Assembly (NCBI GenBank): GCA_035998445.1
Contig: DASYHQ010000052.1
Span: 124,001 to 188,000 of the forward strand
Source of the DNA: Tepidisphaeraceae bacterium
GTDB lineage: Bacteria > Planctomycetota > Phycisphaerae > Tepidisphaerales > Tepidisphaeraceae
DNA length: 64,000 nt
Direction of reading: 5' to 3'
The notes beneath the pieces are model-generated. The model did no database searches. It was not told where the DNA came from and was given only the letters and a program-made list of their open reading frames with translations. This document shows, one piece after another, positions 53,534-62,822 of the stretch. Position 1 is the stretch's first letter, and every line of letters starts with the position of its first letter. A program made the translations under genes and the position numbers.

Positions 53534-53672
53534 CCGTGGCATGGGCGTCTCGTCCATGCATTTAGATTGGAATGACAGCTGAATTAGTGCCAGTCCGCTT
53601 CGATTGAGCCGCGAGGCACGAATTAAATTGAACTGCCCAACCGCGAGCATGGGCGAGACGCCCATGCCACGG
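53534..53672. repeat. Palindromic repeat family C, copy 1
   Basis: Ends CCGTGGCATGGGCGTCTCG and GGGCGAGACGCCCATGCCACGG enclose about 90 bp of unrelated sequence; about 139 bp in all. It lies 38 nt after the 89-aa gene. Confidence 0.75.
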
Positions 53673-57470: not shown

Positions 57471-58038
57471 GATCTTCTGTAGGACAGGCATTCCTGCCTG
57501 TCTCTCCCCCCGTCTTATCTCCCCCCGTATTCCCTCTTCTGTGGCACAGGCATTCTTGCCTGTGTCTCTTCGTCTTTGCGTTCTTGTCTGTCTCTCTTTG
57601 CGCTTGGAGTGCAGAGAATACGAACGCGAACGTCGCGAAGGGCAGACGCGAAGGACCGCGAAGAAGGCAGAACACATTCGCGGCGGCGGTCTGGGTAAGG
57701 CAAAACGCGAAACCGTGCACCATTATGCACCATTGTGCAACATCGCGTGGACGATCCAGTCACCGGTAAGGCTCATCACGTCCCGTATTCAGTTGTCAAA
57801 GAGCACGCTATCCATCTCTACGCCCGCGCTGCGCAATTGACGTGGACTTCGCGCAACACCCTTCGATTTTCTTCGCGGCTTCCTTCGCGCCATCGCGCCT
57901 TCGCGTTCTCTTCATTCTTACCGGGCAGTCGCAGAGACACAGGCGAATGCCTGTGCCACAGAAGATAGGCAGAAAGAAATGCGGGGGAGAGTAAGACGGG
58001 GGGAGAGACAGGCAGGAATGCCTGTCCTACAGAAGATC
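57471..58038. repeat. Three-layer nested inverted repeat, 568 bp
   Basis: The outer arms (57471-57517 and 57992-58038) are a perfect 47-bp inverted repeat containing GTAGGACAGGCATTCCTGCC. The second layer (57535-57569 and 57933-57965) shares TCTTCTGTGGCACAGGCATT with one short indel. A third layer of GCGAAGG-rich words lies within (57617-57668 against about 57850-57915). The centre (57680-57850) has a local repeat GTGCACCATTATGCACCATT. No convincing gene is present. It resembles a miniature transposable element that has accumulated others. Confidence 0.8.
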
Positions 58039-58824: not shown

Positions 58825-58962
58825 CCGTGGCATGGGCGTCTCGCCCATGCACTTGGTGAGGCAAAGCGACATTATTTGTTGCAGTTACTTGGGCGAAGCT
58901 GACGGGCGGAAATCGAGTTCTCCGTCCAATCGACATGCATGGGCGAGACGCCCATGCCACGG
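58825..58962. repeat. Palindromic repeat family C, copy 2
   Basis: CCGTGGCATGGGCGTCTCGC at the left and GCGAGACGCCCATGCCACGG at the right enclose about 90 bp that differ from copies 1 and 3; about 138 bp in all. Its arms explain the short peptides of the GMGVSPM and MGETPMP type in local frames. Confidence 0.8.
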
Positions 58963-62672: not shown

Positions 62673-62822
62673 GCCTTACCGTGGCATGGGCGTCTCGCCC
62701 ATGCTTGTGTTAGCGGCGGAAGATTTCATTCTGAGCTGTTGCGCGGCGGGCGCGGTCTGGCACCAATCAAATCGTTATTTCAATCAACACGCATGGGCGA
62801 GACGCCCATGCCACGGTAAGGC
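62673..62822. repeat. Palindromic repeat family C, copy 3
   Basis: GCCTTACCGTGGCATGGGCG and CGCCCATGCCACGGTAAGGC are exact inverted ends, about 150 bp in all, with a centre unrelated to copies 1 and 2. It lies between the GlmU-like gene and the GT4 gene. Confidence 0.8.

Follow-up and report, generated by a model that had tools for sequence, protein, structure and literature searches.

A concentric nest of REP palindromes in a Tepidisphaeraceae genome, probably a composite REPIN moved by a RAYT transposase

The window analysed here is a stretch of 64,000 nucleotides from the genome of a Tepidisphaeraceae bacterium (contig DASYHQ010000052.1, positions 124,001 to 188,000). Between two convergent genes of this window, one transglutaminase-like and the other encoding a DUF2293 protein, lies a 568-bp block (57471-58038) in which several inverted repeats are nested one within another, in the manner of an ‘onion’ (Table 1). 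Three further repeats in the window (at 53536-53670, 58827-58960 and 62681-62814) are REPINs of a different family, with GTGGCATGGGCGTCTCGCCCATG, a start-to-start spacing of 123-124 bp in all three and translations that read as ‘HGRDAHAT’ peptides; one of them is found where the DUF2293 ORF begins.

The outer arms of the block are perfectly identical in inverted orientation over exactly 47 bp from 57471 and 58038, as the first-pass annotation of the sequence had described, and longer arms of 61 bp (57471-57531 and 57978-58038) are 92% complementary. The outermost two base pairs on each side (GA and TC) belong to the locus rather than to the element, whose family boundary is TCTTCTG...CAGAAGA. 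A second inverted pair, said to differ by one small indel, was found as described (57535-57564 and 57938-57965), the indel being 2 nt that are absent from the right hairpin. A third, GCGAAG-rich pair (57626-57673 and 57870-57911) was likewise correctly recognized, and the centre that it encloses measures about 185-195 bp rather than the 170 bp originally given. One layer had been overlooked: a further REP, termed C, of which the window copy retains a left remnant only, is complete on both sides in many other copies. The three REPs (A, B and C) all consist of a GTAG or GTGG foot, an 8-bp stem (with one mismatch in C) and a TTCY loop, and the consensus of REP C, drawn from 26 full copies, is GTGG-GACGGACA-TTCT-TGTCTGTC. 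In the consensus of those 26 copies, three concentric REP pairs surround the GCGAAG-rich arms, which in turn surround the centre. When folded as a single strand, the block lies 16.5 SD below dinucleotide shuffles.

Table 1. Coordinates, within the window, of the composite element and its layers.
Feature	Position	Strand	Description
Whole composite element	57473..58036	.	564 bp; ends TCTTCTGTAGG...CCTACAGAAGA; boundary common to other copies
REP A, left	57473..57502	+	TCTTCT-GTAG-GACAGGCA-TTCC-TGCCTGTC; 8-bp hairpin without mismatch; matches the ends of the C64 RAYT element exactly
C-rich extension of left A arm	57503..57531	+	TCTCCCCCCGTCTT...CCCCCCGTATT; shared with the C64 RAYT element and bare A-A REPINs
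REP B, left	57535..57564	+	TCTTCT-GTGG-CACAGGCA-TTCT-TGCCTGTG
REP C, left, degenerate	57569..57596	+	Full form GGTGGGACGGACATTCTTGTCTGTC in other copies (26-copy consensus, module map)
GCGAAG-rich arm, left	57626..57673	+	Same arm type forms inverted pairs in other genera
Conserved centre	57678..57862	+	Two near-invariant blocks; linkers constant in length, free in sequence (47-copy alignment)
rrn-boxA-like motif	57786..57805	-	TGCTCTTTGACAACTGAATA on the - strand; resembles 16S-leader motifs
GCGAAG-rich arm, right	57870..57911	-	Pairs with left arm
REP B, right	57938..57965	-	Hairpin with 2-nt deletion
Extension of right A arm (C-rich; G-rich as written)	57966..58006	-	
REP A, right	58007..58036	-	Inverted partner of left REP A

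A search of the 5.84-Mb genome with the block (the first-pass annotation had proposed one with the 47-bp arm and the core) showed it to be one copy of an extragenic family that is dispersed over the genome: the 40 candidates scored, out of 205, gave 135 matches, spread over dozens of places. From these, 39 matching regions were retrieved for the comparison of copies, and full-length copies were 69-83% identical to the window block. Over the whole 5.84 Mb, there are 238 occurrences of the REP core CTGTRGSACAGGC, compared to a single one for the reversed control. Complete copies share precise ends (TCTTCTGTAGGACAGGCATTCCTGCCTGTC and GACAGGCAGGAATGCCTGTCCTACAGAAGA), and the repeated unit in the 40 complete elements is the inverted doublet A>...A<, starting with TCTTCTG in 35 of 40 and ending with CAGAAGA in 34 of 40. 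The centre was matched 37 times in 1.63 Mb, which extrapolates, very roughly, to 100-130 copies genome-wide. Nested copies range from 379 to 773 bp in length, and only bare A-A copies are as short as the standard unit of about 100-130 bp.

A map of the individual modules over the same 1.63 Mb (28% of the genome), in which the calls depend on mismatch thresholds, indicated a near-strict order of layers: A, B, C, the GCGAAG-rich arm and then the centre. The departures from this order comprise an additional C that separates A from B (at 69 kb of contig C61 and 94 kb of contig C5) and one C immediately outside A (at 156.8 kb of contig C18). Bare A-A units of 110-112 bp are found at C61 140236 and 177786, and the loop of the latter falls between CGTATT and AATACG, at the position occupied by B in other copies. 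Shells bounded by A also harbor other contents, namely GCCAAG arms (C61 95967 and 104646), a GATCCTTCGGAGTACC element with TCATCCTGAGGTACTCCGAAGGATC pairs (C61 216226), a CACAGAG element (CACAGAG/CCAAGCCCCAATG fillings, C8 99250) and a RAYT gene (on contig C64); the reverse situation, a centre between GCGAAG arms with no REP shell, is also present (L041). Thus all the states that the first-pass annotation had thought worth seeking (empty, single-layer and multi-layer) do exist, as paralogous copies rather than as alternative forms of one orthologous locus. One-sided ‘half onions’ are found as well (C18 431919, 562303 and 546864; C8 158576 and 204100), several of which stop at the outer edge of the GCGAAG arm; these common truncated copies could have arisen by deletion, by one-ended movement or by some other process.

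In other genera of the family, GCGAAG inverted pairs stand alone around short unrelated loops, or enclose GCCAAG pairs. Together with the varied fillings of the A shells, this arrangement indicates that nesting of palindromic elements is general in the lineage. Additional families that nest with REPs include the GCCAAG-arm, TCATCCTGAGGTACTCCGAAGGATC, CACAGAG and CCAAGCCCCAATGCC elements (in relatives, at L096, L097 and L233), for which a literature search by sequence gave no relevant match or name.

The symmetry of the onion might have a simpler source, in which a linear A-B-C-GCGAAG array was duplicated in inverted orientation in one step, by template switching, and all later copies descend from that event. 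The symmetrical order in nearly all copies and the presence of one-sided half arrays are both what such an event would leave behind. However, the linker that joins C to the GCGAAG arm is not the same on the left and on the right, and each version is conserved among copies; furthermore, shells are combined with unrelated inner contents (GCCAAG, GATCCTTCGGAGTACC, CACAGAG or the RAYT gene), and the inner pairs also occur free of a shell. Because the linkers differ and the shells and fillings are exchangeable, an origin by inverted duplication is regarded as improbable, and as less likely than the composite REPIN proposed below. The differing linkers are themselves compatible with stepwise insertion, while not being proof of it.

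The sites occupied by the family were examined on three contigs with a simple, home-made gene model based on codon usage. None of the 50 elements lies within a predicted gene, and 25 of the 50 lie between convergent genes, as compared to 148 of 799 gene pairs. Two copies (L003 and L021) directly follow hairpins with T runs that resemble intrinsic terminators, in their left flanks. Target-site duplications, which the first-pass annotation had proposed to look for, were seen in none of the 40 complete elements: there was no excess of direct matches between flanks at boundary shifts of -4 to +4. Their absence fits transposition by a Y1 enzyme and speaks against a MITE of the DDE type, an assignment that was rejected on this ground.

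The perfect outer arms had initially been taken to imply recent activity or gene conversion, an interpretation that comparison of the copies did not support, since REP A is 97% identical among all of them. Left and right arms are no closer within a copy than between copies for A (0.969 versus 0.970) and C (0.737 versus 0.735), so the perfect arms reveal nothing particular about the window copy. For REP B they are marginally closer within a copy (0.892 versus 0.883). Gene conversion between the arms is therefore not seen for A and C, and is at most marginal for B. Identity between copies drops inward, from 0.97 (A) to 0.88 (B) and 0.74 (C), which likely reflects the decay of the inner shells as passengers in an element that still needs only A for its movement.

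A candidate for the enzyme responsible is found on contig C64. Of eight matches to Y1 transposases in the genome, one, a RAYT, occupies a unit of 602 bp that shares 40 bp of identical inverted terminal sequence with the onion (TCTTCTGTAGGACAGGCATTCCTGCCTGTCTCTCCCCCCG). Its protein displays an HVH motif and a downstream tyrosine when aligned to 4er8, its best-matching structure (E. coli TnpA-REP), and scores above the cut-off of the Y1_Tnp profile; its best NCBIfam match is REP_Tyr_transpos (NF047646; E 3.9e-21), at 75.5 bits slightly below the cut-off of 80. The window copy, by contrast, carries no Y1 transposase gene and hence lacks a defining feature of IS200/IS605 elements. The nearest relatives of the C64 RAYT, in two other genera, are 44-51% identical to it and are flanked by the same type of REP. 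More broadly, matching inverted hairpins with GTRG feet surround 55 of 80 related RAYTs in named genomes of many phyla, as compared to none of 63 windows placed 1 kb away and none of 80 shuffles. The TTCC/TTCT (TTCY) loop shared by REPs A, B and C accompanies 13 of the 20 closest RAYTs versus 4 of the 60 others.

Across the same named genomes (L252-L331), REP stem and loop class (TTCY, CTCY, ATCY, TCY or CCCY) shift with the relatedness of the RAYT, and this set provides data ready for a study of RAYT-REP co-evolution. The C64 RAYT itself (L075:1369-3027) lies at the 3' end of another gene, presumably thiE-like (as recognized by eye), with a frame that is continuous through the REP, giving an ORF of 552 aa. 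On contig C58 (L076:31-2592), a RAYT domain with inverted REPs on either side is found in frame within a DinG-like helicase gene, as an uninterrupted ORF of 853 aa that contains both Helicase_C_2 and Y1_Tnp. The same arrangement recurs at L157 (in G013) and L162 (in G020), and thus in three genera, with an identity of about 61% and differing flanking REP sequences; its retention despite those differences suggests that the fusion is a domesticated, in-frame RAYT.

Considering that the C64 RAYT lies between 40-bp ends identical to those of the onion, and that target-site duplications are absent, the block is read, with good though incomplete confidence, as a non-autonomous composite REPIN/BIME that was moved by this RAYT, acquired further palindromes in its loop and was then multiplied as a unit. 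The outer GTAG hairpins (REP A) would serve as recognition ends for the C64 RAYT, an HUH enzyme of the Y1 type. TnpA-REP is known to cleave single-stranded DNA between C and T next to hairpins, with GTAG as the determinant (PMC8266576), and the conserved TCTTCT ahead of GTAG offers such sites. The C64 enzyme may therefore cut single-stranded DNA between C and T beside the foot of the GTAG hairpin, and the whole A...A unit would then move to other extragenic sites without target duplication. If the loop of a palindrome is tolerated, or even preferred, as a home for another palindromic element, then the layers might be explained by entry of B pairs into the A loop, of C pairs into the B loop and of GCGAAG elements into the C loop, with the 185-bp centre innermost. 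The finished onion would have been amplified as a unit until about a hundred copies were present, for the most part between convergent genes; it is probable that most of these arose when the finished structure moved, and not through its reassembly at each locus.

Several observations count against this composite REPIN: it exceeds ordinary REPINs in length by a factor of 4-5, REPs B and C have no cognate RAYT of their own in the genome, and the score of the C64 RAYT falls just below the cut-off. For the GCGAAG layer, a second transposase was sought, and no such arms flank any of the Y1 genes inspected in the genome and in six relatives. The notion in the first-pass annotation that one palindrome had been targeted by another, or that several families had been combined, is nonetheless largely supported, in that an onion of several repeat families and its layer states were found; the recent activity or conversion proposed with it is not supported, and no target duplications were seen.

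A quite different suggestion, which we consider rather improbable, is that the family is a non-mobile chromosomal signal under selection (such as a bidirectional terminator, a stabilizer of mRNA 3' ends or a nucleoid or gyrase site) that was spread by conversion between loci. Extragenic location with a bias to convergent genes, the very large hairpin energy, and the conservation of centre blocks even in truncated copies would all suit a signal of this type, but its sharp ends would not be expected to coincide with those of a transposase-bearing element, nor to enclose other cargos, and no conversion between arms was seen. A role as a chromosomal signal and mobility by way of a RAYT are in any case compatible.

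The centre requires separate consideration. In an alignment of 47 centres, its near-invariant blocks display pairwise identities of 0.89-0.99, versus 0.40-0.54 for the two main linkers, which measure 35-37 nt (with a single copy as the exception) and 15-16 nt. One block comprises three 10-bp units of TGCACCATT, and the other bears the boxA-like motif. Divergence amounts to 0.066 in blocks versus 0.362 in linkers, and the same difference is seen in copies lacking one REP A end (0.056 and 0.344) or both (0.079 and 0.375). Its persistence without REP A ends argues against REP-driven movement as the only reason for the retention of the blocks, although descent from a common source prior to insertion could produce part of the apparent constraint. 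The identity of the 20-mer was predicted from the centre as an rrn boxA and then compared with 16S leaders. In the leader of the same genome, AGTTCTTTGACAAGTGAATA on the sense strand has 3 mismatches in 20 to TGCTCTTTGACAACTGAATA; leaders of three relatives (G013, G059 and G026) have 3-4 mismatches in 20, versus a shuffled minimum of 5-7, and those of four other genomes of the class match more poorly (5-7 mismatches). The 20-mer thus resembles the rrn boxA antitermination signal, with a putative role to match.

These data raise the possibility, still a doubtful one, that the centre functions as an element in its own right, for example an untranslated RNA or a boxA antitermination module, for which the REP onion is only a vehicle. 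The contrast between blocks and linkers (also in copies devoid of REP A ends), linkers of constant length and nearly free sequence, and the resemblance to a motif of 16S leaders all point in this direction. Set against them are an absence of covariation (one compensatory pair in 24, with a covariation term of -0.05, by which a structured RNA was rejected), the lack of any Rfam family match at E<=1 (the one match, attributable to chance, lay outside the element) and the lack of any bias in the orientation of the centre relative to genes; moreover, among 61 genomes searched the centre is found in its own and is absent from the 60 relatives, an exact 25-mer of it is absent from the collection of named genomes, and shared descent prior to insertion could inflate the constraint. 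A coding function was rejected because the main linker changes in length between copies (35 versus 36 nt), which breaks the frame.

A conserved scaffold joined to a variable segment of constant length would also be expected if the variable linker were a guide that matches the target of RNA-guided insertion. That idea is scarcely credible, as linkers are no closer to their own flanks than to those of other copies on either strand (p 0.09-0.98), and it was rejected for the flanking 60 bp.

A bolder version of the composite REPIN, which on present evidence seems unlikely, is that a RAYT-driven REPIN captured a boxA-bearing 185-bp module, either useful to the host or manipulating it, that is now under selection at roughly a hundred gene ends, including those where the REP ends have been lost. 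If true, REPINs would act as vehicles by which transcription ends are rewired across the whole genome. REPs rank among the most frequent repeats of bacteria. The states seen in this genome form an ordered series, from empty through one and several layers to alternative fillings and a transposase, in which nesting within palindrome loops becomes directly testable as a route by which REPs may grow into mosaics.

The closest known counterpart is the REPIN and its RAYT (Bertels & Rainey 2011, PMC3116915), which the element resembles in its inverted GTRG REPs, extragenic location, multiple copies, conserved ends and RAYT-flanking REPs; the 110-bp A-A copies are ordinary REPINs. The family also displays the features of GTAG-superfamily REPs and REPINs, namely a palindrome with a GTRG foot, high copy number, extragenic location, an inverted doublet and a cognate RAYT. 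In contrast to a REPIN of about 100 bp, it contains three different concentric REP pairs, layers that are not REPs and a conserved 185-bp cargo, and it is because of this excess of length and complexity that it is termed a ‘composite’ REPIN. That REPINs might incorporate useful DNA, gain an advantage and build complex structures was a speculation of the same authors (PMC3116915), for which the boxA-bearing and selected-looking centre is a candidate case. A mosaic of REPs in alternating orientation is likewise the hallmark of the BIME (bacterial interspersed mosaic element), although BIMEs are serial arrays, whereas the onion is concentric, has a near-fixed order and encloses other repeat families.

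GTAG-tagged palindromes are known in the PVC superphylum, where REP-flanked RAYTs have been termed REPtrons and TIRtrons, and double inverted repeats (a degenerate REP plus an unrelated stem-loop) surround some RAYTs (Di Nocera et al. 2013, PMC3733652); a nested onion of several families with a cargo is not described in the portions of that paper drawn upon here. Mobile elements within REP palindromes have a precedent in Tobes & Pareja 2006 (PMC1525189), where, in the portions considered, it is complete IS that enter REPs, as opposed to the small palindromic elements that occupy palindrome loops here in a near-fixed hierarchy. Finally, the 20-mer TGCTCTTTGACAACTGAATA resembles the rrn boxA of 16S leaders, and differs from it in its location, within a mobile repeat between genes and on the opposite strand to that of the alignment.
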